From Eubacteriales bacterium (lineage in GTDB: Bacteria > Bacillota > Clostridia > Oscillospirales > Oscillospiraceae), in NCBI GenBank assembly GCA_030533415.1, contig JAUNJE010000020.1:1-46027 (forward strand): DNA of 46,027 nucleotides, in the 5' to 3' direction. The position numbers and the translations under genes were made by a program. Under the pieces are notes generated by a model. The model did no database searches and was not told the origin of the DNA. It was given only the letters and a program-made list of their open reading frames with translations. Shown piece by piece: positions 4,516-43,680 of this stretch (position 1 is its first letter; each line of letters begins with the position of its first letter).

Positions 4516-4562
4516 AAAGAATTCTCCCAGAGTGTGGTCAACACCTGGGAGAATTTTGTTTT
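4516..4562. terminator. bidirectional terminator between isc operon and helicase operon
   Basis: AATTCTCCCAG (4520-4530) pairs with CTGGGAGAATT (4545-4555), and an inner GTGT/ACAC extends it to about 15 pairs. TTTTGTTTTT follows on the plus strand and CTTTTTCC on the minus strand, so it can stop both converging operons. Confidence 0.85.
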
Positions 4563-4577
4563 TATAAAGAAACGGTA

Positions 4578-6830
4578 TTAGGAATTTTGGACACTGGTAC
4601 GCTCCGCTTCCCAGCTTAGAATTTTATCCCGAAGTCCATCCAGATCAAGTACGCCATAGGCAAAGCCCTTCCGCACCAGGGCTTCCGGAAGGTACTCGTC
4701 ATATTTGTCAAAGAGGGGCAGCTCTTTGGGATAGACCAGCTCCAGCGGTTCGATGGGCTTTCGGATCTCTTCAAACAGGACCCGGAAGAAGGTGTCCTCG
4801 TCCGCCTTCATGGTAAACTGCATGTAAAAGGGCCGGGCAGAATCCAGATTCCGCAGGCCAAGCCGGGCCGCGCACTTGATTTTCAGAAACCGTTCCATGG
4901 CCAGGAAGGTGTAGGTCCCCACCCAGGGCAGCAGGCACCACATGGTTCCGCCCAGGTGAATGAGGGGCTTTTCTGCCGTGCCGGCGTGGGCGGCGGTAAA
5001 ACGGGCCTGCTGGAGCCGGGCCACCGCATTTTTCATCAGGTAGGGGTATTGGCGATCCTCCCGGAGCACCTGGCGCATCCGGTCCAGAATTTTGGTGTGC
5101 AGGTCGCCGGGACACTGGCCGAAGTAAGCGGGGACGGTACCCTTGACCAGCTCGCAGTAAACCAGATGCCGCTTGGGGTCCACATCCAGCACCTGCCATA
5201 CATGCCCGGCAATGGCCAGCTTTTCCCCAACGGGGGGCGGCGAGACGATGGTTCCCAGTTCCTGGGACTCGCTGCGGACGGTGTATTCTTCATTTTCCTG
5301 AAATACGCCGTAGAATTTGAAGGAATTCACCACCCGTTCTCCGGTGATGCCCACGATCAGGCCGCCCTGTTCCGTCTGCTGGATGTGGTCGGTCTGAATC
5401 AGGTGCCGCAGCAGTACCTTATAGTCCTCCTGGGTGATTTTGTGGAAATAGTGCAGCCGCAGGACCCGGTCCGCCAACGCCCGGGGAGACAGTTCCCCGC
5501 AGGAGGCCAGGGTGGACATGGTCTGGTGGTACAAAAGGCTGAAGGGCAGCCGGTCCAGCCGGGGCGGCTCCACCCACCGCTCCTCCAGATAGAGCTGAAC
5601 CAGCGCAATTCCCTGCAGCAGCTTCCAGGGAACCGTGGCGGGCAGCATGGCCCGGGCCTCCGGCTCGTCCTCCCGCATGACAAACCACATTTCCGGCGGA
5701 AGCTCCCGCCGGCCGGTGCGGCCCATGCGCTGCAAAAAGGAGGATACCGTCCAGGGCGCGTCGATCTGGAAGGCCCGTTCCAGGCGGCCGATATCAATGC
5801 CCAGCTCCAAGGTGGCAGTGGTCACGGTGGTCATGAATTGGGAATCATCCTTCATGACGCCCTCCGCCGTTTCCCGGTAGGAGGCGGAAAGATTGCCGTG
5901 GTGGATGAGAAAGCGGTCCGGCTCGTGCCTGCTTTCGCAGTAACGCCGCAGCGTGGTGGTGACGGTTTCGCATTCTTCCCGGGAATTGACGAATACCAGG
6001 CACTTTTTGCCCCGGGTGTGCTCAAAAATATAGCCGATTCCCGGGTCCGCGTTTTGCGGCGCCTGATCCGTGGGTTCTTCCAGCACGGGCAGCGCCTCGA
6101 TATCGGTTCTGTTTTCGGCAGCCGGGGCGTTTTTTACATAAAAGTGCTCCATGCTGAGCCGCCATTTGCTTCCCTTGGCCTCGATTTTGGGAATGATGGT
6201 TTTCCGCCCGGTACCCAGGGAGAGAAATTCGCCGGTTCCCTCCGGGTCGCCGATGGTGGCGGAAAGGCCGATGCGGCGGGGATTCACGCCTGCCAGCCGG
6301 GACAGCCGCTCGATCAGGCACAGGGTCTGCCCGCCCCGGTCGCCCCGCAGCAGGGAGTGGACTTCGTCGATCACCACAAACCGCAGGTCGCCAAACAGCT
6401 TGGGAATCGCGGCGTGCTTGTGCAGAAGCAGGGCTTCCAGGGATTCCGGGGTGATCTGCAGAATGCCGGAGGGATGCTTCATCAGCTTCTCCTTATGGCT
6501 CTGGGCAACATCGCCGTGCCAATGCCATACCGGGATATTTGCCTCGGCACACAGGTCGTTCAGGCGGAGGAACTGGTCGTTGATCAATGCTTTCAGCGGG
6601 CCGATATAGATGCAGCCCACGGAGGAGGGCATATCCTCCGAAAAAAGGGTGATGATGGGGAAAAACGCGGCTTCCGTCTTGCCGGAGGCGGTGGAAGCGG
6701 TCAGAAGCAAGTTTTCATCCGTGCCGAAGATGACCTCTGCGGCGGCCACCTGAATCGCCCGCAGGCTTTCCCAGTGGTTGCGGTAGATATACTCCTGTAC
6801 GAAGGGCGCATAGCGTTCAAATGCACTCAT
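4578..6830 (-). CDS. Lhr-like superfamily II DEAD/DEAH-box helicase
   Basis: A 750-residue SF2 helicase, third gene of the TerB-ATPase-helicase operon. Motifs in order: Q-like region (about 20-30), Walker A TASTASGKTE (44-53, Lys51), motif Ia IGPLKAL, TPES (127-130), DEVH (155-158), SAT (190-192), helicase C with VFVNS (279-283), TTVTTATLELGIDIG (334-348) and motif VI QRMGRTGR (367-374). About 330 residues follow the helicase core, with a winged-helix-like and an Lhr-type C-terminal region. The Lhr affinity fits a DNA translocase or helicase. Start ATG at 6830 sits 10 bases after the ATPase stop. Predicted role: nucleic-acid remodelling together with its two partners. I see no nuclease or methylase motif in it. 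Confidence 0.85.
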   Translation of the reverse strand: MSAFERYAPFVQEYIYRNHWESLRAIQVAAAEVIFGTDENLLLTASTASGKTEAAFFPIITLFSEDMPSSVGCIYIGPLKALINDQFLRLNDLCAEANIPVWHWHGDVAQSHKEKLMKHPSGILQITPESLEALLLHKHAAIPKLFGDLRFVVIDEVHSLLRGDRGGQTLCLIERLSRLAGVNPRRIGLSATIGDPEGTGEFLSLGTGRKTIIPKIEAKGSKWRLSMEHFYVKNAPAAENRTDIEALPVLEEPTDQAPQNADPGIGYIFEHTRGKKCLVFVNSREECETVTTTLRRYCESRHEPDRFLIHHGNLSASYRETAEGVMKDDSQFMTTVTTATLELGIDIGRLERAFQIDAPWTVSSFLQRMGRTGRRELPPEMWFVMREDEPEARAMLPATVPWKLLQGIALVQLYLEERWVEPPRLDRLPFSLLYHQTMSTLASCGELSPRALADRVLRLHYFHKITQEDYKVLLRHLIQTDHIQQTEQGGLIVGITGERVVNSFKFYGVFQENEEYTVRSESQELGTIVSPPPVGEKLAIAGHVWQVLDVDPKRHLVYCELVKGTVPAYFGQCPGDLHTKILDRMRQVLREDRQYPYLMKNAVARLQQARFTAAHAGTAEKPLIHLGGTMWCLLPWVGTYTFLAMERFLKIKCAARLGLRNLDSARPFYMQFTMKADEDTFFRVLFEEIRKPIEPLELVYPKELPLFDKYDEYLPEALVRKGFAYGVLDLDGLRDKILSWEAERTSVQNS

Positions 6831-6840
6831 GGTGGTTTCC

Positions 6841-8154
6841 TCACAGTTCGAATTCCGCGAATTCCCCGGCGGTTTCCTCCTCTGCCACCGCGTTCCGGGC
6901 GTAGGTGAATTGCTCTGAGCCTAAAAGCGCGCGCACATGAACCCCCGGATTTTGGTATACGATATCCAGCACCTCGATAAAGTCCCGGATCACCTCCCGG
7001 GGGGTGATGTGGGTATCCGCGCCGATGCGGCCGAATTCAATTTCAATGAAGTCCACCATGTCCTGCTGGGTGACGATTTGGGGGTATTCGTACAGTCCCG
7101 CGTGAATATCCGCCAGCTTTTCCGTCAGGATCAGCATTTCCTCCGGTGTAAGGGGCTGGAGACGGATCACAGGAGAGAGCAGATCCTTGTGTTCCCCGGA
7201 GAAATGGCCCTCCGCCAGCCGGGAGCGCAGGGCCTCATAGCTGTAAACACCCCGGCGGGGGTCCTCCATGCACTGGGGGGTGCCGCAGAGGATGATCCCC
7301 AGGTGCTGGGCCTTACCCTGCATGGTGTCGTTATACATGGTCAGGATTTTTTCGTAGTTATACTGCCTGGTAATGGCGTTGGGGATTTTATAAATATTCA
7401 CCAGTTCGTCGATCAGAATCAGCATCCCGGCATACCCCGCCTGCTTCAAAAAGCAGGCGAAAAGCTTCAGATATTCATACCAGTCATCATCCGTGATAAT
7501 AATATTGACCCCCAGCTCCTGACGGGCTTCGGTCTTGGTGCCGTATTCCCCCCGGAACCATTTGAGCACCTTTGCCTTGGTTTTGTCGTCGCCGGAAAGG
7601 TGAGCTTTATAATACAAGGTAAGCAGCCGGGCAAAGTCAAAGCCGTGGACCATTTCGTTCAGGGAGTAAATGACGGCGGAAATTTGCTTCTCCACGGCGG
7701 GGGAGAGCCGGGGATCGGTGATGCTCAGCCCCTGAGCCGCCATGACCTCCTGCTGCACGTTGCTGATCCAGCGGTCCAGGATCAGGGACAGCGCCCCGCC
7801 CTCCGGTTTGGTCTTGGTGGACATGTTGCGGATCAGCTCTTTATAGGTCGCCAGCCCCTGCCCACGGGTACCCTGGAGGCGCCGCTCCGGGGACAGGTCG
7901 GCGTCCACCACCACAAAATTCTTTGCCATGACATAATTGCGGATGGTTTGCAGCAGAAAGCTTTTGCCGCTGCCGTATTTGCCCACGATGAAGCGGAAGG
8001 AAGCGCCGCCGTCGGCAATGATGTCCACATCCCGCAGCAGGGCGTCGATTTCCTCTTTCCGCCCGACGGTGATATAGGGAAGCCCCACCCGGGGCACCAC
8101 GCCGCCTTTGAGGGAATTGATTAGCGTCTGGGCGATTCGTTTGGGTATTTTCAT
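6841..8154 (-). CDS. DUF2791/BREX-type P-loop ATP-binding protein
   Basis: A 437-residue P-loop ATPase resembling the DUF2791 family (the 'BREX system ATP-binding' or BrxD type). Seen: an N-terminal block IAQTLINSLKGGVVPR, Walker A GKYGSGKS (58-65), Walker B MLILIDE (244-250), a sensor region near IILCGTPQCMEDPRRG and a charged C-terminus. Its ATG overlaps the stop of the TerB-like gene (ATGA), and the helicase follows 10 bases after its own stop, so the three are coupled. None of the other BREX genes (pglZ, pglX methylase, brxA, brxL) occurs in the window, so this is not a BREX locus. A role loading or energising the helicase is inference. Confidence 0.8.
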   Translation of the reverse strand: MKIPKRIAQTLINSLKGGVVPRVGLPYITVGRKEEIDALLRDVDIIADGGASFRFIVGKYGSGKSFLLQTIRNYVMAKNFVVVDADLSPERRLQGTRGQGLATYKELIRNMSTKTKPEGGALSLILDRWISNVQQEVMAAQGLSITDPRLSPAVEKQISAVIYSLNEMVHGFDFARLLTLYYKAHLSGDDKTKAKVLKWFRGEYGTKTEARQELGVNIIITDDDWYEYLKLFACFLKQAGYAGMLILIDELVNIYKIPNAITRQYNYEKILTMYNDTMQGKAQHLGIILCGTPQCMEDPRRGVYSYEALRSRLAEGHFSGEHKDLLSPVIRLQPLTPEEMLILTEKLADIHAGLYEYPQIVTQQDMVDFIEIEFGRIGADTHITPREVIRDFIEVLDIVYQNPGVHVRALLGSEQFTYARNAVAEEETAGEFAEFEL

Positions 8155-9611
8155 GGGTGTACCATCTCTTTCAAATCTTCGATATAGTCTTCGACCAATT
8201 CCGGCTGGTTATCCAGGGTCAGAACCGAGTCGGCGAATGTTTCGAACAGCTTTTCGTTGATGCTGTCCGCCAGTACCGACAGCATCAGTCCGGAGGACTG
8301 CACCCAGCCCAAATCCCTGCCGTACAGCAGACATTGCAGCAGGCGGTATTCCTCCCGGCTCAGGGGCGTTTCTTCCGGGCCGCTTTCCGGGGCTGGGGGC
8401 TGGGGAACCGGCGCTTTCGGAGATTCCTCTGCCATGGCTTCCTCTTCAACGATCAGCTTATCCTGGGTGATGGCGGCATCCCTGCGGATCTGGGACAGCT
8501 GGGAATAGCGGATGGTGACTTTCTTGTCCTGGGCCGCTTTCTTCTCCGCCAGGAGCCTGCGGGCCTCCTCTTCTATGAGTTTCAGAAGCCATTTGGTGTC
8601 CACTTCCCGCTTAATAGGGTGCCCGTAGCCATAGCATTCCCGCATTACGGAATCAATGGTTTTCACAAGTTCTCCCAATTTGGCACTTGGGCATTCCGGA
8701 CAGGCGTATTTTTGGACGGACCAGATGCCGTTCCTGCACCGGTAGGTGCGGATTTCATCAAGGACAAATTCACAGCTGCGTGTCCTTTTCCGGTTGTGGA
8801 AAACGGCTGATTCAAAAAGCACCACGGGAAATTCTTTATAAACTCCAAAATACTGCTCGACCATGGACTTTTTGCAGCGGTTCGTATAGTGCTCTGCAAT
8901 GCGCCGCAGCACCCTGGCGGTGACGGTGTCCATATCCTCCCGGTAGGTTTTATAAAATTTGGAGCGTTCCAGCCACCGGCCGGACAGGGCGGTAACGGCC
9001 TGCATGATCTGCTGGGTATCCTGGTTTTCGATATTTTCCAGCACTGCCAGATGCTTGTCAAAGCGGACCTGGGCGGTGTCCGCCAGCAGCGCGGGGTCAA
9101 GGCCGTAATAGATGACATAATCCGTCAGCCAGCGGCTTGTATATGGGAGAATGCCCGTATCCAGTTCCCCATATACCCCTTGAAACGCCTTCAGCTTCCG
9201 GTAGCCGTCCATAGGGTCCGTGACCCCGATTTGGTTGAGAAGCTCATAGATATAGAGGAAGGCATAGGTCAGGGATGTTTTCTGAACATCGCCCCGGCGC
9301 AACTTTGTCCGCCAGGAAAAATATCCCCGAAGCTCCGAATCCATCAGGGATTGGTAGGTGGGGAAATAACGCAGCACCGGTTTCTCATAGACAAAGTCAT
9401 CCTCATAATTGGAAAGAATCATTCCCTGCTTTACAAAGAGGGCTTCCCGGGGCTGCCGGTAGGAGGTGATGTTTTTTTCCAAAGAGCGGGCGGCGCGCAG
9501 AGGGGAGGGGACAGGTTCTATGAATTCCCGGGGACAGGGCCGGATGGCCTCCTCCTGAAAGATGGTGCGGTAAAACCACTCTGTGGCTTTCTTCACCCGG
9601 TTCGTATCCAT
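8151..9611 (-). CDS. TerB-N/TerB-C domain protein (predicted DNA-processing partner)
   Basis: First gene of the operon. I choose ATG 9611 (MDTNRVKK, 486 residues) because GAGAGGAGGGC lies eight bases upstream; the alternative ATG 9635 lacks any ribosome site and falls in the predicted leader. The first about 290 residues resemble the TerB-N module (blocks LRYFPTYQSLMDSELRGYF and SLTYAFLYIYELLNQIG). A region with a CPEC pair lies near residue 308. A proline-rich linker (about 408-425) leads to a C-terminal helical domain resembling TerB-C (LSREEYRLLQCLLYGRD). Proteins of this kind co-occur with helicases and P-loop ATPases and have been predicted to act in stress or DNA processing. No catalytic residues are apparent. 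The match is by eye and needs a profile search. Confidence 0.72.
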   Translation of the reverse strand: MDTNRVKKATEWFYRTIFQEEAIRPCPREFIEPVPSPLRAARSLEKNITSYRQPREALFVKQGMILSNYEDDFVYEKPVLRYFPTYQSLMDSELRGYFSWRTKLRRGDVQKTSLTYAFLYIYELLNQIGVTDPMDGYRKLKAFQGVYGELDTGILPYTSRWLTDYVIYYGLDPALLADTAQVRFDKHLAVLENIENQDTQQIMQAVTALSGRWLERSKFYKTYREDMDTVTARVLRRIAEHYTNRCKKSMVEQYFGVYKEFPVVLFESAVFHNRKRTRSCEFVLDEIRTYRCRNGIWSVQKYACPECPSAKLGELVKTIDSVMRECYGYGHPIKREVDTKWLLKLIEEEARRLLAEKKAAQDKKVTIRYSQLSQIRRDAAITQDKLIVEEEAMAEESPKAPVPQPPAPESGPEETPLSREEYRLLQCLLYGRDLGWVQSSGLMLSVLADSINEKLFETFADSVLTLDNQPELVEDYIEDLKEMVHP

Positions 9612-9647
9612 TGGCTTTGCCCTCCTCTCGTCCATATGTTTGGAATT

Positions 9648-9676
9648 ATCATACTATATTTGGCAAGGACAGTCAA
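9648..9676 (-). promoter_or_regulatory. SigA-type promoter of the TerB-ATPase-helicase operon
   Basis: Minus strand TTGACT (9671-9676), 17-base spacer, TATGAT (9648-9653). The expected start near 9641 gives a leader of about 30 bases to the ATG at 9611 and excludes most of the region needed for translation from 9635. A constitutive promoter, with no operator-like repeat seen. Confidence 0.8.
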
Positions 9677-9775
9677 GCATACGAAGGAAAAATAGAGAGG
9701 AAATTTACAGGGATGTTCCGAAAGCCGGCGGGCGGCAGATACCGCAGACCGGCCGGATTTTGAATAATTTCAATT

Positions 9776-9820
9776 AGGTACCTTGATATTTTGGCGGAAA
9801 ATGCTATAATAAAGGTACCT
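9776..9820 (+). promoter_or_regulatory. promoter of marR-ABC operon flanked by two AGGTACCT operators
   Basis: TTGATA (9783-9788), 16-base spacer and a perfect TATAAT (9805-9810). The palindrome AGGTACCT occurs at 9776-9783, touching the -35, and at 9813-9820, just after the -10, 37 bases apart. The layout fits repression by the MarR protein encoded next. The binding itself is inferred. GAGGTGAT precedes the ATG at 9844. Confidence 0.7.
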
Positions 9821-9843
9821 AAAGAATATGAGGTGATAAACGT

Positions 9844-10407
9844 ATGGAAGAAAAGAACGCCGGTGAACACGGCAGCGGGAATTTCCCGGCGGGAAATCAT
9901 TTGAAATCCCACAGGGACCATTATCAATGTGCCGGCCGGAATGAGAAGCTGGTCATGAATCTGCAAACCCTGAGCCATATTATGCGCGCCCAATATGAGG
10001 GCAGGGCCAGCCAAAAACGGATTTTGATCCTGCTGTATGAGGCGGAAACGGTTACGCAGAGGAATCTGACGGAACGCCTGGGGATCCAGCCGGGGTCTTC
10101 CAGCGAGATTCTGGCAAAGCTGGAGAAAACGGGACTGATCACCCGCACGCCGAATGCCCAGGACCGCAGGACGGTCGATATCCGTCTGACCGCCGCGGGA
10201 AAGGAATTGGCGGTAGAGGCCGCGAAGCAGCGCCGGCAGCGCCATGCGGACATGTTCGCCTGCCTGTCGGAGGAAGAGCAGCAGACCCTTCTGGCGCTGC
10301 TGGAGAAACTCAGCGGCGATTGGCAGGTGCGGTTCCGGGAAACCGGGAAGCCGCATGGACATGGAAACCACCCCCACGAGCGTGGCGGGCATGGGTTTTC
10401 CGGCTGA
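9844..10407 (+). CDS. MarR family transcriptional regulator
   Basis: A 187-residue MarR protein. A hydrophilic N-terminus (about 45 residues) precedes the winged helix: ILILLYEAETVTQRNLTERLG (helices 2-3), SSSEILAKLEKTGLI (recognition helix) and the wing RTPNAQDRRTVDIRLT with the typical DRR. The C-terminal helix is EEEQQTLLALLEKLSGDW. It has a His/Gly-rich tail (HGHGNHPHERGGHG) that might bind metal, but this is only a composition observation. It leads a three-gene operon with two ABC exporter halves, the classic arrangement for a drug-responsive repressor. The inducer cannot be read from sequence. The tandem AGGTACCT palindromes around the promoter are its likely operators. Confidence 0.9.
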   Translation: MEEKNAGEHGSGNFPAGNHLKSHRDHYQCAGRNEKLVMNLQTLSHIMRAQYEGRASQKRILILLYEAETVTQRNLTERLGIQPGSSSEILAKLEKTGLITRTPNAQDRRTVDIRLTAAGKELAVEAAKQRRQRHADMFACLSEEEQQTLLALLEKLSGDWQVRFRETGKPHGHGNHPHERGGHGFSG

Positions 10408-10430
10408 TTGCAAGTGGAGGTGACGTGTCA

Positions 10431-12170
10431 ATGTGGAAATATATCAAGCCCTACCTTCCCTATGCCGTGTTGGCCGGTGTGTTTATGGTGGGCGAGGTCC
10501 TGATGGACCTGATCCAGCCGGGCATCATGAGCCGGATCGTGGATGACGGTGTTTTGGGACTGGCCAACGGCGGCCGGGGTGATCTAAGCCTGATCTGGAC
10601 GCTGGGCCTGCAAATGGTCGGCCTTGTGCTGTTTGGGGGACTTTGCGGTTCGCTGAACAACGTGTTTGTCCATATGTCCGGGCAGAACATCGGCAACGAA
10701 ATGCGCAAGGACTGCTTTCGCAGGATTATGACGTTTTCCTTTCCCCAGGTGGACCGGTTTGGCACCGGCTCTCTGGTGACAAGGGTGACGAACGACATCA
10801 CCCAGGTGCAGAATTTTGTGTCCCAGTTTGTGCGGGGAATGATCCGCACTTCGCTGCTGATGTTTGGCAGCATATTCTGCATGTTCCGCTTAAACCGGAA
10901 CTTCGGCTGGATCGTGCTGTGCGCGTTCCCGTTTCTGGTGGGCTGCCTTGCGTTCTGCATGTCCAAGGCAAATCCCCTGTTTTCAAAATTACAGGCACAG
11001 CTGGACGCGGTCAACGCCATTATGCAGGAGGATGTGTCCGGCATCCGGGTCATCAAGGCCTGTGTGCGGGAGGCCTATGAAAAGCACCGCTTCGGGAAGG
11101 TAAATGACGCGCTTATCAAAACCCAAATGAGGACCCTTGTGATTTTTGCGTTTATGAACCCTGTGGTCAACGCGCTGATCTATATTGTCATCGCCATCCT
11201 TCTGCTGGCAGGCTCCTATGAAGTGCGCCAGGGAGGAACCACCCCGGGCAGCGTTATGGCGGCAATTACCTATACCACCCAACTGCTGAACGGCATCCTG
11301 ATGCTGGTGATGCTGTTTCAGAACATTTCCAGGGGCCTGGCCTCTTGGAAGCGCGTCAGGGAGGTGCTGCACAGTGAGCCGGAGCTGAAAGACGGTACCT
11401 TGACCGAAGGGCCGGGCCAACCCGGAGAAATTGAATTTCGGGATGTCAGCTTTGCGTATCCCGGCGGCGGCCAGAAGGTGCTGGAACATATCAACCTGAC
11501 CATTCGAAGGGGAGAAACGGTTGCCATTATGGGAGCCACCGGATGCGGAAAGACTACACTGGTGAATCTGATTTCCCGGTTTTATGATGTGACGGACGGG
11601 GCAGTCCTGGTGGATGGCGCCGACGTGCGGGATTACCGCCAACAGGCGCTGCGGGAGAAAATCGCTGTGGCCCTGCAAAAAAGCGAGCTGTTCAGCCAGA
11701 CCATCGGGGAAAACATCGCCTGGGGCCTGCCGGGAGCGGAAGAAGCCGCTGTGAAGGCCGCCGCCGTTACGGCACAGGCGGATGGATTTGTCTGCTCCAC
11801 GGCGGAGGGATACGGTACGGTGGTGGCTGAGCGGGGCATGAGCCTGTCCGGCGGCCAAAAGCAGCGGGTCTCCATTGCGAGAGCCGTTTTGAAACCGGCG
11901 GAGATCCTGATTTTTGACGATGCCACCAGTGCCCTTGACCTGAAAACCGAGGCCAATTTGTACAAGGCGCTGCGGGAGGCCCATCCGGACAGCACCAAAA
12001 TCATCATTGCCCAGAGAATCGCGTCCGTCCGGAGCGCGGACAGGATTGTTGTTCTGGAAAACGGCAGGATCTCCGCCTGCGGGACCCATGAGGAGCTGCT
12101 CAAATCCTGTCCGGTCTACCAGGACATTTACCATTCCCAGATCGGAAGGGAGGAGGAATCCCATGGCTGA
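10431..12170 (+). CDS. heterodimeric ABC exporter, subunit with degenerate ATP site
   Basis: A 579-residue half-transporter: a six-helix exporter domain (about 1-310) followed by a nucleotide-binding domain. Start ATG 10431 follows GTGGAGGTGA; a longer frame from 10320 overlaps the marR gene. Walker A GATGCGKTT (368-376), signature LSGGQ (472-476), Walker B ILIFDD (Asp496, Asp497). Asp497 stands where the catalytic Glu is expected, and Gln528 replaces the switch His (IIIAQRIAS). Both changes mark the degenerate half of heterodimeric exporters such as BmrCD or TM287/288. It overlaps the second subunit by eight bases. Predicted substrate: drug, lipid or peptide, unknown. Confidence 0.93.
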   Translation: MWKYIKPYLPYAVLAGVFMVGEVLMDLIQPGIMSRIVDDGVLGLANGGRGDLSLIWTLGLQMVGLVLFGGLCGSLNNVFVHMSGQNIGNEMRKDCFRRIMTFSFPQVDRFGTGSLVTRVTNDITQVQNFVSQFVRGMIRTSLLMFGSIFCMFRLNRNFGWIVLCAFPFLVGCLAFCMSKANPLFSKLQAQLDAVNAIMQEDVSGIRVIKACVREAYEKHRFGKVNDALIKTQMRTLVIFAFMNPVVNALIYIVIAILLLAGSYEVRQGGTTPGSVMAAITYTTQLLNGILMLVMLFQNISRGLASWKRVREVLHSEPELKDGTLTEGPGQPGEIEFRDVSFAYPGGGQKVLEHINLTIRRGETVAIMGATGCGKTTLVNLISRFYDVTDGAVLVDGADVRDYRQQALREKIAVALQKSELFSQTIGENIAWGLPGAEEAAVKAAAVTAQADGFVCSTAEGYGTVVAERGMSLSGGQKQRVSIARAVLKPAEILIFDDATSALDLKTEANLYKALREAHPDSTKIIIAQRIASVRSADRIVVLENGRISACGTHEELLKSCPVYQDIYHSQIGREEESHG

Positions 12171-13980
12171 CAATAATAGTCAAAAGCTGGTGGAGCGGAA
12201 TATTCCCGGAATGAACCGGCATGAGCGCTTTACCCAGGTGGAACATGCGGAAAATGCCGGTGCCGCCTTAAAGCGCATTGTAAGATATTTTACCCATGAA
12301 AAAGCATTGGTCCTTTGTATGCTTGCTGTTGTGGTATGCGGGACGCTTTGCGGCGTCTATGCGCCGAGCCTGCAAAGCAACGCGGTGGATATCATTGCGG
12401 GGGAGCGGCAGGAAAGCCTGATACGGACGCTGCTTATGATGCTTGCGGTCTATCTGCTCTACAGTGCCAGCGCACTGCTGCAGGGGCTGCTCAGCGCCAA
12501 GCTCAGCCAGGATGTGGTAAAGCAGATGCGGGAGGAGCTGTTCGGAAAGATCGTAGAGCTGCCCATATCCTATCTGGATACCCATTCCCACGGCGACGTG
12601 ATGAGCCGGATGACCAATGACATTGAAAATATTTCCACCACCTTTTCCCAGTCTCTGCCCTCGCTGTGCTCGGGTATTCTGACCATCATCGGAACGGTAA
12701 CGATCATGCTTTGGTACTGCTGGCAGCTGGCGCTGCTCAGCATGGCCACGGTGCTTCTGACGCTGCTTGCCACAAAGATTCTTTCCGGTAAGGTGCGCAG
12801 ATTTTCCCGGCGGCGGCAGATGCTGCTGGGACAGCTGAACGGGACTGTTGAAGAAATCATTTCCGGCTACCGCACGGTCGTGGCTTACAACCATCAGGAT
12901 ATCACCACGGAGGAATTTTGCCAAACGGCGGATTCCCTGACGAAAGCCGGAATCAAGACGGACATTTTCAGCGGCATCATGGGTCCGATTATGAATTGTA
13001 TCGGCAATATCGGTTTTGTGATCATTGCGGCCTTCGGCGGTTATTTCTCCATAAACGGGATGATCTCCATCGGCGTTATTTCCGCCTTTATCGTCTATGC
13101 CAAACAGTTCAGCCGTCCGATCAACGAAATCGCCCAGATCTACGGCCAGCTTCAGACGGCAATCGCGGGAGCCGAACGGGTCTTTGCTGTGCTGGATGAA
13201 GCGAATGAGGACGGCTCCGGTGAGCCGCTGGAAAAGGAAGAAACGGCCACGGTCACCTTTCAGAATGTGTGCTTCTCCTACGAGCCGGGAAAGCCTGTGA
13301 TCCGGAATTTTTCCCTGACGGTGCCCAGCGGCAAAAAAGTCGCGCTGGTGGGAGCCACAGGAAGCGGAAAAACCACGGTGGTCAATCTGCTGATGCGGTT
13401 TTATGATATCGACAGCGGCGAAATATATATCAATTCCCAGAACATCCGAAATGTGTCACGGAGCAGCCTGCGGCAGGATATTGCCATCGTGCTGCAGGAC
13501 ACGGTCCTGTTTTCCGACACGATCCGCAGGAACCTGAAATACAGCAACGAAGCCGCCACCGATGAACAGCTGGAAGCGGCGGTAAAAATGAGCCGGTGCA
13601 AGGACATGATCGCGCTGCTTCCCCAGGGATATGATACCGTGCTGACCGGCTCCGGGGAAACCATCAGCCAGGGGCAGCGCCAATTGCTGGCCATTGCCCG
13701 GGCATTTGTTGCCGATCCCAGAATTCTGATTCTGGATGAGGCCACCTCCAATGTGGACACCCGCACGGAAAAAGCCATTCAGGCAGCCATGCAGCGGATC
13801 ATGCAGGACCGTACCAGCATCGTCATCGCCCACCGCCTGTCCACGATTCAGGACGCGGATCTGATTGTTGTCATGGATCACGGGGAAATTGTTGAAACCG
13901 GAAACCACGAGACGCTGTTGGCCCAAAAGGGGAAATATTATGGCCTGTATATGACGCAGTACGCCGGGTTTGCCACATAA
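12163..13980 (+). CDS. heterodimeric ABC exporter, catalytic subunit
   Basis: A 605-residue partner of the preceding half-transporter. Start ATG 12163 follows AGGGAGGAGGAA; longer frames lie inside the upstream gene. After a hydrophilic N-terminus of about 45 residues come six membrane helices. The NBD has Walker A GATGSGKTT (397-405), a modified signature ISQGQ in place of LSGGQ, Walker B ILILDE with catalytic Glu526, and switch His557 (IAHRLST). A consensus catalytic Glu and His here, combined with the altered signature, complement the degenerate site in the other subunit. This is the expected one-active-site arrangement. The terminator at 14013-14044 follows in the gap, though its T run serves the opposite strand. 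Confidence 0.93.
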   Translation: MADNNSQKLVERNIPGMNRHERFTQVEHAENAGAALKRIVRYFTHEKALVLCMLAVVVCGTLCGVYAPSLQSNAVDIIAGERQESLIRTLLMMLAVYLLYSASALLQGLLSAKLSQDVVKQMREELFGKIVELPISYLDTHSHGDVMSRMTNDIENISTTFSQSLPSLCSGILTIIGTVTIMLWYCWQLALLSMATVLLTLLATKILSGKVRRFSRRRQMLLGQLNGTVEEIISGYRTVVAYNHQDITTEEFCQTADSLTKAGIKTDIFSGIMGPIMNCIGNIGFVIIAAFGGYFSINGMISIGVISAFIVYAKQFSRPINEIAQIYGQLQTAIAGAERVFAVLDEANEDGSGEPLEKEETATVTFQNVCFSYEPGKPVIRNFSLTVPSGKKVALVGATGSGKTTVVNLLMRFYDIDSGEIYINSQNIRNVSRSSLRQDIAIVLQDTVLFSDTIRRNLKYSNEAATDEQLEAAVKMSRCKDMIALLPQGYDTVLTGSGETISQGQRQLLAIARAFVADPRILILDEATSNVDTRTEKAIQAAMQRIMQDRTSIVIAHRLSTIQDADLIVVMDHGEIVETGNHETLLAQKGKYYGLYMTQYAGFAT

Positions 13981-38157: not shown

Positions 38158-40173
38158 TTAATTCAGAAAATCAGCAATCGGCAGCATGCCCTGGTCGATG
38201 CGGGGGTATTTTGCCAGAATGGCATTGGCTTCTTCCTCTGTCATGGGAACCTCACCGTACCAATCGCCCTGCCAGGAAGCGGTGGCTTTATTGTAGGCGA
38301 CAAATTCCAAAAGTACCTCATCCAGCCCCACATACTGCATGAACTGGTGACCATTGATTTCCACACCGGGCGCAAGATCGGTTCTTGTACTTACGCTCTC
38401 CAACACGCCCTGCTCACAGAGATAGAAATTATAATTCACAAGATTTACAACTCGACCGTAACGGTAGGTCAAGGCCGTCCAGTAGAAGTCCGTATTACCG
38501 ATAAAGGAATCATTCTTCCCCTTTAACAGCAGGTCATCCACGCCGTCCCCATTGATATCCAGAATGCGGTAGTGGCTGTAATACGTATCGTCATTTAGAT
38601 ACTTTTTGTAGATATCCAGCAGTTCTTCGTGGGATACCCGCACATCCTTTGCCTTCAAGTAATCTCCCAATGTTTGCTCTTCAGAGATGGGATAGTTCAA
38701 CAGGGGGGTCCATTTCAGTTCCACACGGGGATACTGATCCATAATTGCCTTGGCTTTTTCTTCCGTGATGGGTGTTTGCTCGTAGTCAGTAGGGCCTTGT
38801 GTCCATTGGTCCTTTTCCCGTTCCAGAACTGTCAAAATTGTTCTCTCTGCATCGATGACGGATTCACTGATAGGTGCATAATATGCATGTATTTCATATC
38901 TTTCGTTGGCAGATACCGCTTCCTCTACACCGTTTTCACATAGGTAAGTATCCGCAACAATATACTCCAATGTCTGCCCATCACACAGAGTGGCCAAACG
39001 GCCATAAGCACCGTTTTCGCCAATCAGCAGTTCGTCCTCTCCGTCACCTGTTAAGTCATAGAATGTGTATTGCAGGTTTTCATTTGGAATCGTAAACATG
39101 GAGGTAATATAGTCTGTAAAGCTGCCATAGGTCTCCGGCACGTAGGTGTTTTCCGCATCATAGGCTTGATTGGATTCCTCTAAGCGCTGCTCCACGGCGG
39201 TACGGTCAAGAATTTGGGGCTGGATGGAATAGTCAAATACATCCGCCACCGCTTCCAGCTCTTCCCTCGTCATGAGTTCCTCTGCTTCCGGGTATGCGCT
39301 CATGGAAAAGTTACCGTCCACGGAGAGGATCATCATGGCGTTTTCCGGTTCCGCAACGATGTAGCCGTGGCCCTTGCTGCTTAACGCCAGCAGCAGCGGC
39401 GTGCCATCGGAGGCGGTATAGTCCCACTGCTCATAAAGGCTCAGGTCTGTGCCGCCGGGGTAGTCCCTGGGGAAATAATCCTTCCGGGCATAGAGGACGG
39501 TGACCCAGGGCTTGCCCTGTACACCATCCATATCCAGCTCAATATCCACATCAAAATTATAGGGCGGATAGAACATACCGGAAAGGCGGGTCATTTCCGC
39601 GCCGCTGTCCGGCAGCACCAGAGACCCAATTCCCGATTCTTCCAGAAAAATGTCGCTCTGCCATGCCTGAAAGGGAAGCCACTCTTCCAGCAGCTTTAGG
39701 TTATACTTTGCCGCGATCTCGTCCACCTTAGCGGCCATATCCGCGGTGTAGCAGCCGTAGGTATACTCATACTGGTTGGGAATTTCCGCATGATCCGGGT
39801 TGTTGTCCGCGTATTTTCTATCCGGGTCGTAGGTTTCGAGAAACGCGAACCACTCAGCCGTGGCCTGCTGGATGGCATCTCCGTTGTGGCCGAACAGCGT
39901 CAGCACATCCCGGGTCTTTTCCACCGGCTCGATGGCCCTTCCGGAATCGTCAAAGCTCTGTGTATAGGTTTCCTGCCCAATGGACATATCCTGCAGGCGC
40001 AGGGCGTGCACCACCGCGCAGCCCACCAGCAGGGCTGTCAGCGCAATAACCGCCGCAATCAGCAGGGGCCTGCGGAATGTCCTGTGCTTTGATGCAATGG
40101 TTTCCTTCTCCGCTTCCTCGTAATATTTTGGGCTGATATCACCCAGGCCAATCAGCAAATCCTTTCCAGTCAT
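38158..40173 (-). CDS. large sigma-partner membrane protein with FG-GAP-like ectodomain (copy 1)
   Basis: A 671-residue protein. A cytoplasmic N-terminus (MTGKDLLIGLGDISPKYYEEAE, about 1-35) precedes one membrane helix (about 36-58, with LLVGCAVVHAL), then an ectodomain of over 600 residues. In it I see two calcium-loop-like motifs, DLTGDGEDELL and DINGDGVDDLL, as in FG-GAP/VCBS-type repeats, and a repeated ITEEKAKAIMDQYPR / TEEEANAILAKYPR block. Its ATG overlaps the sigma stop (ATGA). The N-terminus resembles clostridial anti-sigma tails, so anti-sigma function is likely, with the ectodomain as sensor or enzyme of unknown specificity. Paralogous to the protein at 40863-42935. Confidence 0.72.
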   Translation of the reverse strand: MTGKDLLIGLGDISPKYYEEAEKETIASKHRTFRRPLLIAAVIALTALLVGCAVVHALRLQDMSIGQETYTQSFDDSGRAIEPVEKTRDVLTLFGHNGDAIQQATAEWFAFLETYDPDRKYADNNPDHAEIPNQYEYTYGCYTADMAAKVDEIAAKYNLKLLEEWLPFQAWQSDIFLEESGIGSLVLPDSGAEMTRLSGMFYPPYNFDVDIELDMDGVQGKPWVTVLYARKDYFPRDYPGGTDLSLYEQWDYTASDGTPLLLALSSKGHGYIVAEPENAMMILSVDGNFSMSAYPEAEELMTREELEAVADVFDYSIQPQILDRTAVEQRLEESNQAYDAENTYVPETYGSFTDYITSMFTIPNENLQYTFYDLTGDGEDELLIGENGAYGRLATLCDGQTLEYIVADTYLCENGVEEAVSANERYEIHAYYAPISESVIDAERTILTVLEREKDQWTQGPTDYEQTPITEEKAKAIMDQYPRVELKWTPLLNYPISEEQTLGDYLKAKDVRVSHEELLDIYKKYLNDDTYYSHYRILDINGDGVDDLLLKGKNDSFIGNTDFYWTALTYRYGRVVNLVNYNFYLCEQGVLESVSTRTDLAPGVEINGHQFMQYVGLDEVLLEFVAYNKATASWQGDWYGEVPMTEEEANAILAKYPRIDQGMLPIADFLN

Positions 40174-40724
40174 ACGCAGATCCCCTCCTTTGCCAAATAG
40201 GTTTGCAGTTTTGTTCTTGTCCGGTGAAGCTGGGTTTTGACCTTGCTCTCACTGATGCCATACCGGGCAGAAATTTCTGCCACGGTATCCACATACAGGT
40301 ACCGCCGCAGAAAAATCAACCGGCTCTCCTGCGGCAAAGCATCCAGAAACGCTTCCAGCACCCGCCGCAGTTCCCTTCTGTCCATTTGCGCGTCCTGACT
40401 TCTGTCCGGGATGCAGCTTTCCATCTCCTGCGTCAGGGCCACCACCTCGGCATTTCGTTTTGCCGCCAGTCTCCAGTCCAGACGGTTCAGAGACAGATTA
40501 CGGCAAACCGCCGCCAAAAAGGCATAAAAGCACTTAGGGTGTTTGGGAGGAATCGATTTCCAGGCTTCCATATACGTATCACTCACGCTTTCTTCTGCAT
40601 CCTCTGCATTATTGAGAATTTTGTTGGACAGCACAAAGAGCTTTCTGCCATAGGCGTTATCCGTCTCCTGAACGGCCTGTTCGTTCCGCTCCCAGAACAA
40701 AGCGATGATCTTCGCATCTTCCAC
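40170..40724 (-). CDS. ECF-type sigma factor (copy 1 of tandem pair)
   Basis: A 184-residue ECF sigma factor starting with GTG after AAAGGAGTGAG. Region 2 is AEDAEESVSDTYMEAWKSIPP with FYAFLAAVCRNLSLNRL. Region 4 is ALPQESRLIFLRRYLYVDTVAEISARYGISESKVKTQLHRTRTKL. Its paralogue at 42932 has the same length and start context, which suggests a duplication of the sigma/partner pair. It is co-transcribed with, and overlaps by four bases, its membrane partner. Confidence 0.92.
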   Translation of the reverse strand: MEDAKIIALFWERNEQAVQETDNAYGRKLFVLSNKILNNAEDAEESVSDTYMEAWKSIPPKHPKCFYAFLAAVCRNLSLNRLDWRLAAKRNAEVVALTQEMESCIPDRSQDAQMDRRELRRVLEAFLDALPQESRLIFLRRYLYVDTVAEISARYGISESKVKTQLHRTRTKLQTYLAKEGICV

Positions 40725-40780
40725 TTGGGCTCACTCCTTTCTGATTTTGTTCCTCACCCTAATAGTAAGTTTTTATGCTT

Positions 40781-40791
40781 CAAAGGTTACA
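40781..40791 (-). promoter_or_regulatory. shared promoter-like motif TGTAACCTTTG upstream of sigma copy 1
   Basis: Minus strand TGTAACCTTTG lies about 60 bases before the start. A near match, TGAAACCCTTTG, lies at 43518-43529 before sigma copy 2. Both recall ECF-type -35 elements (TGAAAC), suggesting that the two units are controlled by an ECF factor, possibly their own. No clear -10 partner (CGTC) was found at fixed spacing. Confidence 0.3.
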
Positions 40792-40822
40792 CCCATTTTA
40801 GCACTTTTTTCGAGAAAAGGAA

Positions 40823-40853
40823 GAACCAGCTTCCCGGTGTGGGAGGCTGGTTC
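40823..40853 (-). terminator. terminator of sigma pair 2
   Basis: GAACCAGC (40823-40830) pairs with GCTGGTTC (40846-40853) with an inner TCCC/GGGA arm. On the minus strand TTCCTTTTC follows. It ends the operon starting at 43486 and isolates it from pair 1. Confidence 0.72.
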
Positions 40854-40862
40854 CTGCATAGG

Positions 40863-42935
40863 TCAAGTAAACGGGTACTCTGCAATTGGTTTCATGTCCA
40901 ACGCCAACGGTGTGTATTTTGCGCAGATGGCATCAAATTTCGCCTGAGAAATATACTCCATCGAAATATCCTGACCGGAATTGTCCGCACTTCGCATCCA
41001 AGGGTTGTCGGGATTTTTGTCTGCGTCATAGCGAAGATAATCCGTCAAAACCGCATTGCCGTTTACGATTTTGTAGTAACAGTGGGTTTTGTTCCCGTCT
41101 AAATAAGATCGGGTTACAGCAAGGATGTTTCCTTCACACAATTTCACGTCCAAGCCGCTGACCAACTGCTTGACCTGCCCGTCCTTCATTGTGAACACAC
41201 CCGTCCAGTTGCCTTCCTTCCAAATCAATTCCTGTTGACCGTCACCGTCCAGATCGGTCAGCTGATAGCCCCAATTACTGCGATCTTGCTCCCATTCTGT
41301 GCGGCTGCGAACCAGGTCGTTGTAGCTTATGTAGGTTTCCGGAGGATTTCCTATGCCGCTGGGAGAATCATCCGTAAGTGGGTAATCGGAAATTGGGTAC
41401 ATATCCAAGGTCACGCGGGGATAAGAAGCCACGATGCGGTTGAATTCTTCCTCCGTAATGGGATAGGAATTATGGTTCTCATCATACCTCTGCCATTTGC
41501 TGTCCTCCAGTCCGGTGTTCAGTGGATCGTACACAATCCGGTCTGTCCAAACCAGTTCCCCATTCTTCACACTGGCAAAATGGTAAGCCACACCGTCACC
41601 TTCCAAGTCATAAACATAGGCCAGTCCGTTATTCTCACACAGATAAATATAGGTGTAACCGCCACCGTATTCGCCCACGCCAATATCATTACCCAGTTTG
41701 AACATATTCAGATAAACAACACCCATTGGCATCATGTGCTGGGAACCGCCATCAATGGTTGTATAGACAGCCCGGATATAACCGTTTTCGCCCACCAGAA
41801 GGTCTTCCGTGCCGTTACCTTCCAGATCCAGCACCGCAAAGGACAGAAGTTCCGGGTTGACAGCATATTCCAAATTGAATTTGATCCGGTTCTCATAGCC
41901 CAGCTGTGAAAAGCTGTGAGCCATCTTTTCGTAGTCTTTAGCGAAGGCTTGGTCGGCCTGTTCACGGCGTTCATCGGCGGCGTACTGATCTTCCTGGCTT
42001 ACCCGCTGAGGCTCTACAGTGAAATCGAAGGCTTCCGCATACGCTTCCAGTTCCGCCTTATCCGGCAGAGGCATCTCCTCAAATTCATCGATGGAGAACA
42101 GAAACACATACGGCCCACGGTCTGCTATGATAAGGGCATGCCCCCGAACACTTCCTGTCTCAATGACCATCAGTACATCCACTCCATAGGAGGTACTATA
42201 TGCCCATTCCTCATATGTCCCTTCAGGGCCAATACTTCCATACAGGTCGCTGAAGGCATCTTTGCGGTGGCAGCTAAAGGAAACAATATGCGTATCATTT
42301 TCAGACAGGGTCACATAACCCTCCAAATCAAAGGAACCGTTGGCATAATAGCAGATGTTGTCGAAATCTGATTCCAACTGAGTACCGGGACGGAAGATGC
42401 CTTGAATTTGCAGGGCCTTGCAGCCTGCTTCCACATCGGGATCCACATACATCTTCCCCAGCAGCTCCAAACCATACTTGGCGCAGATCTCGTCTAGCTT
42501 GTCCTTCATTTCTCGGGAATAGAGGTTATAGGCATAGTAGTCATCCCCAAAATCTTCGGAGAAAGCTTCATCAGAATACCGAATTGCACCGTCGGTATCA
42601 TAGGTTTGGAGCCATTCGTACCATTCCTTGGACGCCTGATAGCCGGGAGTCCCCCGAACCCCCTGCAAAGAAAGAAGCGTTACCGTCTGAGAGGAACCGT
42701 CGTAGTAGGTCTGCTTCTCTTCGCCAAAGGCCATGTCCTGCAAGCTCAGCACATACACCACCGCACATCCCACCAGCAGGAGTGTCAATGCAATAATGGC
42801 AGCGATCAGCCAGAATCGCTTGGCGGGCATATGCTTTGCACGGCTCTCCTGTTTACCCTGACGAAATTCTTCGGCACTGATCACATAGGTGTGCTTTACA
42901 TTCCCAAGGGACTCTAACAATACAATCGGTTTCAC
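40863..42935 (-). CDS. large sigma-partner membrane protein with FG-GAP-like ectodomain (copy 2)
   Basis: A 690-residue paralogue of the protein at 38158-40173: a cytoplasmic tail of about 40 residues (MKPIVLLESLGNVKHTYVISAEEF), a membrane helix (about 41-63) ending in the shared segment LLVGCAVVYVLSLQDMAFGEE, and a long outside part. DxEGNG/DxDGDG-like motifs are DLEGNGTEDLL, DLEGDG and DLDGDGQQELI. The ITEEEFNRIVASYPR block matches the copy-1 repeats. Start overlaps the sigma stop (ATGA). Divergence between copies is large outside the anchor region, so the two likely sense different things. Anti-sigma role inferred. Confidence 0.72.
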   Translation of the reverse strand: MKPIVLLESLGNVKHTYVISAEEFRQGKQESRAKHMPAKRFWLIAAIIALTLLLVGCAVVYVLSLQDMAFGEEKQTYYDGSSQTVTLLSLQGVRGTPGYQASKEWYEWLQTYDTDGAIRYSDEAFSEDFGDDYYAYNLYSREMKDKLDEICAKYGLELLGKMYVDPDVEAGCKALQIQGIFRPGTQLESDFDNICYYANGSFDLEGYVTLSENDTHIVSFSCHRKDAFSDLYGSIGPEGTYEEWAYSTSYGVDVLMVIETGSVRGHALIIADRGPYVFLFSIDEFEEMPLPDKAELEAYAEAFDFTVEPQRVSQEDQYAADERREQADQAFAKDYEKMAHSFSQLGYENRIKFNLEYAVNPELLSFAVLDLEGNGTEDLLVGENGYIRAVYTTIDGGSQHMMPMGVVYLNMFKLGNDIGVGEYGGGYTYIYLCENNGLAYVYDLEGDGVAYHFASVKNGELVWTDRIVYDPLNTGLEDSKWQRYDENHNSYPITEEEFNRIVASYPRVTLDMYPISDYPLTDDSPSGIGNPPETYISYNDLVRSRTEWEQDRSNWGYQLTDLDGDGQQELIWKEGNWTGVFTMKDGQVKQLVSGLDVKLCEGNILAVTRSYLDGNKTHCYYKIVNGNAVLTDYLRYDADKNPDNPWMRSADNSGQDISMEYISQAKFDAICAKYTPLALDMKPIAEYPFT

Positions 42936-43486
42936 AGATACCCCTCCTCACTAAGACGCTTGCGAAGCCTGCCTCTCGTCCGGTGGAGCATGGATGTGAC
43001 CTTGCTCTGGGTAAAGCCAGAGTATTCCGAAATGGCCTGAATGGAATCCATATACCAATACCGGCACAGGAATACATTCCGTTCCGTTTCTCCCAGGGAC
43101 GACAGAAATTGATTGAGAACCCTTGTTAATTCTTTTTGTTCAAATGCGTTTTCCGTATTATGGACGTCTACGCAGTTTTCCAGTTCTTCCAGAGCCAGAA
43201 TGATCTCACCGCCGCCCCGTTTCTTGGCACTGCGCTTTCTCCAACGGTCTATGGAAATATGCCGAGTAAGCTTCCCAAGGAATACATTGAGAAAGCTCGG
43301 ACGTGTGGGCGGGATCGTATTCCATGCGGCCATATAGGTATCGCTGACACTTTCCTCTGAATCTTCCCGGTTGGACAGGATATTGTATGCAATGGAGTAG
43401 CAATAGCCGCCATACTTTGTATCCGTTTCCACGATGGCCTGTTCCGATCTTTTGAAGTAAAGATCGATGATAGCAGTATCCTCCAA
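42932..43486 (-). CDS. ECF-type sigma factor (copy 2 of tandem pair)
   Basis: A 184-residue ECF sigma factor. I place the start at TTG 43486 (MEDTAIIDLYFKRSEQAIVETD), six bases after GGAGGTGG; the longer frame to 43678 runs through the terminator of metF. The aligned N-terminus and identical length to the copy at 40170 (MEDAKIIALFWERNEQAVQETD) support this. Region 2: REDSEESVSDTYMAAWNTIPP. Region 4: LGETERNVFLCRYWYMDSIQAISEYSGFTQSKVTSMLHRTRGRL. Overlaps its partner gene by four bases. Confidence 0.92.
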   Translation of the reverse strand: MEDTAIIDLYFKRSEQAIVETDTKYGGYCYSIAYNILSNREDSEESVSDTYMAAWNTIPPTRPSFLNVFLGKLTRHISIDRWRKRSAKKRGGGEIILALEELENCVDVHNTENAFEQKELTRVLNQFLSSLGETERNVFLCRYWYMDSIQAISEYSGFTQSKVTSMLHRTRGRLRKRLSEEGYL

Positions 43487-43517
43487 GCAACCACCTCCAG
43501 TAATCTTTATTTTATAA

Positions 43518-43529
43518 CAAAGGGTTTCA
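43518..43529 (-). promoter_or_regulatory. shared promoter-like motif TGAAACCCTTTG upstream of sigma copy 2
   Basis: Minus strand TGAAACCCTTTG about 43 bases before the TTG start, a close relative of the motif before sigma copy 1. TGAAAC is the core -35 of several Bacillus ECF factors. A CGTCTA box is seen nearby but upstream of it, so the exact promoter is uncertain. Confidence 0.3.
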
Positions 43530-43652
43530 CTTGTATAGACGTAAATCCTGTGCGTGTATTGCACGGAATTCAAAAAAATTTTTCTATTATACCATTCGTC
43601 CGGCATAGATATATTCACTTCTATAACCATGAATGTATCCAGATAAAGACAA

Positions 43653-43680
43653 GAGTGGCGCAGCTGACGCTGCGCCACTC
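43653..43680 (-). terminator. terminator of the metF-containing operon
   Basis: GAGTGGCGCAGC (43653-43664), loop TGAC, GCTGCGCCACTC (43669-43680): 12 perfect pairs. On the minus strand TTGTCTTTATC follows. It ends the rnfC-metV-metF unit. Confidence 0.85.

Follow-up and report, generated by a model that had tools for sequence, protein, structure and literature searches.

Positions 1 to 46,027 of contig JAUNJE010000020.1 of an Eubacteriales bacterium (family Oscillospiraceae; assembly GCA_030533415.1), hereafter the window, carry three adjacent genes on the minus strand, arranged sngA-sngB-sngC. Judging from their sequences, they almost certainly constitute a complete, chromosomal Shango anti-phage system. 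The original prediction, made on the same DNA, had described an operon of a TerB-N/TerB-C protein, a DUF2791 ATPase and an Lhr-like helicase, and its coordinates, the 4-base ATGA overlap between sngA and sngB and the 10-base spacing between sngB and sngC were all confirmed. The features of the locus are listed below.

8151..9611, minus strand: sngA, 486 amino acids from the ATG at 9611 (PADLOC, Pfam and start-codon evidence)
8151-9635, minus strand: longest reading of sngA, 494 amino acids, to which the SngA residue numbers refer
6841..8154, minus strand: sngB, 437 amino acids, DUF2791/BrxC_BrxD ATPase (PADLOC, Pfam and motifs)
4578..6830, minus strand: sngC, 750 amino acids, superfamily 2 (SF2) DEAD/H helicase, Lhr/BrxHI-like (PADLOC, Pfam and motifs)
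9648..9676, minus strand: promoter-like site TTGACT-17-TATGAT, upstream of sngA (consensus scan only)
4520..4555, no strand assigned: hairpin flanked on either side by T-runs, in the sngC-rrf2 interval (fold energy)

The sngA start at 9611, which was also the end given by the original prediction, was preferred to that at 9635 because AGGAGGG precedes its ATG by 8 bases and the SngAs of several close relatives align from there. The promoter proposed for the operon was present as a promoter-like site at 9676-9648 with 10 of 12 consensus matches, in a region that held eight such sites on both strands compared to 3.2 expected in shuffles. The proposed bidirectional terminator was borne out in part: the stretch folds at -21.4 kcal/mol (z -5.0) into the hairpin flanked by T-runs, but a simple pattern scan for terminators did not pick it up. 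We consider it a likely bidirectional terminator. An Rfam scan of the window gave no match at gathering scores.

Each protein matched its PADLOC Shango model, SngB (6e-195, 646 bits, model positions 5-438 of 439) and SngC (1.9e-276, 917 bits, positions 4-714 of 720) over nearly the full length and SngA (6.5e-70, positions 81-526 of 528) over most of it. The profile matches anticipated by the original prediction were largely recovered: Pfam identified TerB_N (9.5e-31, residues 44-254) and TerB_C (3e-22, residues 362-489) in SngA, BrxC_BrxD, which is DUF2791, in SngB (2.4e-175), and DEAD (9.7e-26) and Helicase_C (6.1e-17) in SngC, while WH_Lhr was weak (0.004) and fell under the Pfam cut-off. 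SngC has the helicase core of the Lhr-family SF2 helicases, from which it differs in this sub-threshold winged helix and in sitting in an operon with SngA and SngB. Its best PDB sequence matches, 5v9x and 7lhl, are titled ATP-dependent DNA helicase and are presumably Lhr proteins. The Walker A (GKYGSGKS, residue 58) and Walker B (LIDELVNI, residue 247) motifs of SngB and the SF2 motifs of SngC (STASGKTE, DEVHS, SATIG and QRMGRTGRR) were intact and conserved across 58 aligned sequences. Pfam recognised no nuclease domain in SngA, SngB or SngC.

The same ATPase and helicase could be read as a reduced type 2 bacteriophage exclusion (BREX) system, that is, a BrxD-BrxHI dyad without pglZ, pglX and brxC, since homologous proteins are encoded by adjacent genes there as in the window, and SngB and SngC matched the PADLOC models of BrxD (4.6e-50) and BrxHI (2.3e-117). 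These scores were far under those of the Shango models (169 versus 646 bits for SngB and 391 versus 917 bits for SngC), and the 169 bits obtained with the NCBIfam BrxD model lay below its cut-off of 350, on which grounds we rejected a BREX identity. Moreover, PglZ, PglX, BrxC and PglW, which accompany the dyad in BREX type 2, were not among the 33 window open reading frames (ORFs) scanned with Pfam, a part of those in the window, and the conserved third partner was SngA. A reduced BREX system is thus the least probable explanation that we considered. The original prediction had likewise seen a defence-related unit distinct from BREX and had left the system unnamed; PADLOC, together with the available part of PMC10250203, identifies it as Shango.

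According to the accessible portion of that paper, Shango acts against phages in Pseudomonas aeruginosa and, on the authority of a further paper that it cites, in E. coli; in PAO1 it lowered plaque numbers 10-100 fold for many phages, though not for all, and protected strongly in liquid culture (PMC10250203). The window trio shares with Shango a TerB-type protein, a DUF2791 ATPase and a DEAD/DEAH helicase encoded side by side in A-B-C order, with three of three PADLOC models matched. An E. coli chromosomal locus is colinear, being annotated as a TerB N-terminal protein, an ATP-binding protein and a DEAD/DEAH helicase, and its SngB and SngC are 42% (over 413 amino acids) and 32% (over 749) identical to those of the window. 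The two loci differ in the size of SngA (769 amino acids in E. coli, 486-494 in the window) and in spacing, since in E. coli A and B lie 3 bases apart and B and C overlap by 4. Shango is an already known defence system, and the window trio is a well-supported member of it in a gut-type Clostridia genome. From its sequence, anti-phage activity in the host of the window is probable.

SngB occurs once in the genome assembly of the window. In the family survey, 27 of 200 genomes matched it, including its own; 24 matches were strong and the three weak ones (E 1e-4 to 1e-3) are probably not SngB. Within the genus, 21 of 136 genomes carried it, again including its own, as did 7 of the 40 good ones. 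At least 532 SngB relatives were found in named species genomes, and the best 80 of these formed our locus comparison set. SngA was not seen in two of these 80 loci (L139 and L163), where the contig starts just before sngB. L098, a contig assigned to Bacteroidales by binning, encoded an SngB 90% identical to that of the window; it is perhaps a misbinned Oscillospiraceae contig.

Homologues of SngB were also present in 690 of 72,556 plasmid records. At least H55 among them (22% identity) is annotated as BrxD. All 11 plasmid loci that we opened, from Klebsiella, Salmonella, Aeromonas, Pantoea, two Paenibacillus, Bradyrhizobium, Azospirillum, Roseovarius, Hymenobacter and a haloarchaeon, contained A-B-C trios. 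The E. coli locus has this order too. Of the 690 records (e.g. L176), Klebsiella and Salmonella accounted for 449 and 144, and 542 were typed as conjugative; the one record opened from each of these two genera held the full trio. A DNA match to the Klebsiella ATPase gene was found in 479 of 5426 E. coli genomes, extending over at least 80% of the gene in 467. No match was found among 50,697 phage records, and none of 134 pattern matches in IMG/VR was confirmed. As to gene spacing, the overlap of sngA and sngB was exactly 4 bases long in 69 of 120 loci, and the gap between sngB and sngC exceeded 100 bp in 25 of 115 loci (28 of 114 by a cruder measure), both of these counts including the same genome under two names. 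Such gaps held passengers that varied by locus (NUDIX-, GNAT-, kinase- and VOC-like, by eye; L094, L101, L140, L141, L016 and others), and we dismissed a fourth component between sngB and sngC because they differ from locus to locus.

The iscS-nifU-rrf2 order beside the operon was kept in the genus, while the region after rrf2 was unalignable among ten sequences, window included. Eighteen relatives were examined at this site; two contigs end there (L056 and L057), and the gene order differs in a third relative (L072). The other 15 keep the gene order of the window and extend about 450 bp or more past rrf2, and sng genes followed rrf2 in none of them. Two of these 15 carried Shango elsewhere in the genome (G201 and G135). 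None of ten proteins flanking the operon in the window recurred at 45% identity or more in 46 further Shango loci, and its right flank had no near match on plasmids. Of these loci, 38 come from the 80 named ones and 8 are unnamed; some are short, and some represent the same genome twice. When DNA flanks of 16 loci and the window were compared, leaving out sides under 1.5 kb, they were shared only by two same-contig duplicate pairs and by L099 and L191 (85%), which are different genomes.

The SngB phylogeny did not follow taxonomy. In a first tree, the window fell in a 27-row set with Selenomonas, Acidaminococcus and Desulfovibrio (support 100/99), and 11 same-family SngBs picked for their divergence stood in two other places. 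The Desulfovibrio rows are metagenome bins and possibly misbinned; named strains stand behind the Selenomonas rows and one row of Acidaminococcus. A second tree, made by a quick method, included all 22 full-length SngBs from other genera of the family and placed 21 of them outside the 27-row set (Shimodaira-Hasegawa-like approximate likelihood ratio test (SH-aLRT) 99): 11 formed one clade, 9 a second, and one was loosely placed. L007 lay beside the window. The tree is unrooted, with a midpoint root, and compatible with all 22 having arisen once, separately from the group of the window. Because the SngB tree is incongruent with taxonomy, the operon appears to have been acquired by horizontal transfer into the site after the isc-rrf2 operon.

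These data also bear on whether the trio is instead a housekeeping DNA-repair or remodelling unit whose helicase and ATPase act on the DNA of the host, as would suit the core function that the original prediction considered. The operon adjoins isc-rrf2, SngC resembles the ligase-associated DEXH repair helicase (TIGR04121, 188.8 bits, cut-off 850) and, in agreement with the original prediction, no mobile-element gene was found nearby, Pfam having recognised neither integrases nor transposases nor phage genes in 30 other window ORFs. A housekeeping role is nonetheless highly improbable, given the patchy occurrence in family and genus, the site found empty in the 15 relatives, the incongruent tree and the numerous plasmid homologues. 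The defence content of the flanks was compared with PADLOC (E up to 1e-10) in 148 ORFs flanking 20 Shango loci and, as controls, an equal number from 16 isc loci within the genus. The Shango flanks matched mad3 (8 ORFs), mad8 (5), mad2 (2) and, once each, PDC-S27, PDC-M37B, DolB, MzaA, pVip, PDC-M43B and RT-Protease_XI, while the isc controls matched DndA and SspA (7 each) and AbiEi, mad8, mad2 and HerA (1 each), the DndA and SspA matches being taken to be IscS, the basis on which the control loci were chosen.

The window differs from Shango as listed in a review table, in the part accessible, with the TerB domain PF05099 (PMC10952713), because its SngA has no detectable TerB core. We analysed 53 SngAs, comprising that of the window and 52 of 57 complete SngAs from named species, mostly from Clostridia with some from Selenomonas, Desulfovibrio, Lactobacillus and Victivallales. 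TerB_N and TerB_C were found in 53 of 53, and PF05099 in none, window included (Pfam, E 0.01); the L165 SngA, one of the five outside this set, gave the same result when scanned separately. Among the 11 plasmid SngAs (505-1052 amino acids), TerB_C was present in 11, TerB_N in 10 and PF05099 in seven, including the Klebsiella protein, to which the E. coli chromosomal SngA is 81% identical. The TerB core may have diverged below detection in the short SngAs. Since four of the 11 plasmid SngAs are also without PF05099 and the 528-position PADLOC SngA model fits, we did not count this domain as required for Shango membership, which rests on the other features. Because that model has only 528 positions, the SngA set of the PADLOC makers probably holds short forms, and we do not claim the short form as unreported.

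The short SngA also changes faster than its partners. Of 81 candidate trios, 58 remained once those with cut or short genes were left out, namely the window and 57 named loci; among these, SngA identity was below that of both SngB and SngC in 1653 of 1653 pairs, which are not independent. The median ratio of differences was 2.5 for A/B and 0.98 for C/B, and for the 57 pairs whose SngBs are 85-90% identical, mean identity was 0.857 for SngC and 0.538 for SngA. Among 25 close pairs, the non-synonymous divergence (dN) of SngA was 3.2-8.0 times that of SngB. On these alignments, SngA broadly shares the history of the operon and its protein changes faster, and its lower conservation suggests that it may be the recognition subunit. 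That clostridial Shango forms a distinct subtype, with a core-less SngA that diversifies fast and provides recognition to a conserved AAA+/helicase engine, is a tentative proposal and rather doubtful.

In the mechanism that we propose, SngB, an AAA+ relative of BrxD, would load or gate the SngC helicase on invading DNA, and the complex would unwind or block phage DNA with no recognised nuclease of its own. In the available parts of the respective papers, BrxD is assigned to the ORC-Cdc6 AAA+ ATPases and proposed as a loader or activator of BrxHI (PMC12839542), and SngC, BrxHI, DruE and DpdJ group as a potentially distinct immune helicase clade (PMC12278908). We rate this loading step at slightly short of even odds. 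SngA, the fast-changing TerB_N/TerB_C partner, would sense the phage or direct the complex, and as a sensor it is a somewhat weaker candidate still. Because no Pfam nuclease domain was found, the block could come from helicase action on phage DNA or from an unrecognised effector in SngA. The latter would suit abortive infection, in which an SngA effector released by SngB and SngC on sensing phage DNA stops the cell and not the phage. The absence of a recognised nuclease in the three proteins leaves an effector unassigned, a TM2 domain occurs in one of the 11 plasmid SngAs, and the E. coli and Klebsiella SngAs start with a hydrophobic stretch (by eye). However, none of the 53 SngAs close to that of the window matched TM2, and the P. 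aeruginosa Shango data, in the part of PMC10250203 available, fit suicide less well, making abortive infection unlikely, though well ahead of a BREX or housekeeping origin. In open-licence PubMed Central, we found no paper on the mechanism of Shango.

Taken as a whole, and weighted to the identity part, the reading of the trio as a transferred Shango system with a loader-helicase engine and an SngA sensor has, in our estimate, a probability of roughly 0.7. Several results weigh against it. SngA matches its E. coli counterpart well only over 56 amino acids (BLASTP 36%, E 2e-6), and a profile alignment of the 53 SngAs against six long plasmid SngAs covered only the TerB_C region, so that the role of SngA in the E. 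coli copy and on plasmids may differ from that in the window. The synonymous divergence (dS) of SngA amounted to 0.7-2.2 times the SngB value in the 25 close pairs, with most ratios exceeding 1 and two pairs giving infinite dS, and the dN/dS of SngA was below about 0.4 wherever dS was finite; relaxed constraint or alignment error may therefore account for part of its fast change. SngC was not seen in three of the 80 loci (L095, L151 and L160), of which a contig end explains only L151, while in L158 its gene stands separately on the opposite strand. The excess of defence matches in the Shango flanks is nominal and establishes no defence island around the operon: the two sets are of different taxa and the Shango sample is the first 148 ORFs in locus order. 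A search for solved structural relatives gave none for SngA or SngB, and no functional test of Shango in Clostridia was found in open-licence PubMed Central.

Elsewhere in the window, at 9775-9824, two AGGTACCT palindromes bracket a promoter-like TTGATA-16-TATAAT before a MarR gene, which is followed by two ABC exporter genes (9844-13980); the palindromes are likely MarR operators. The first ABC protein had a best full-length match of only 39% in 20 other genomes of the genus, besides one partial match of 49%, and for this reason looks accessory too. A stretch of lower GC content (38158-43678) holds two consecutive minus-strand pairs, each of a sigma-70-like protein and a protein of 671-690 amino acids with no Pfam match (40170-40724 with 38158-40173, and 42932-43678 with 40863-42935), overlapping by 4 bases.

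Judged from its distribution, Shango in gut Oscillospiraceae is a mobile trait and not part of the core gene set, and, as its clostridial form shows, not every SngA has a recognisable TerB core. A short, fast-changing SngA makes the question of the Shango mechanism easier to test, and identifying the variable subunit offers a direct entry to it. If SngA is under phage pressure, sensing would be separable from the conserved ATPase-helicase engine, and if the clostridial systems do form a distinct subtype, swapping SngA alone would alter which phages are stopped.

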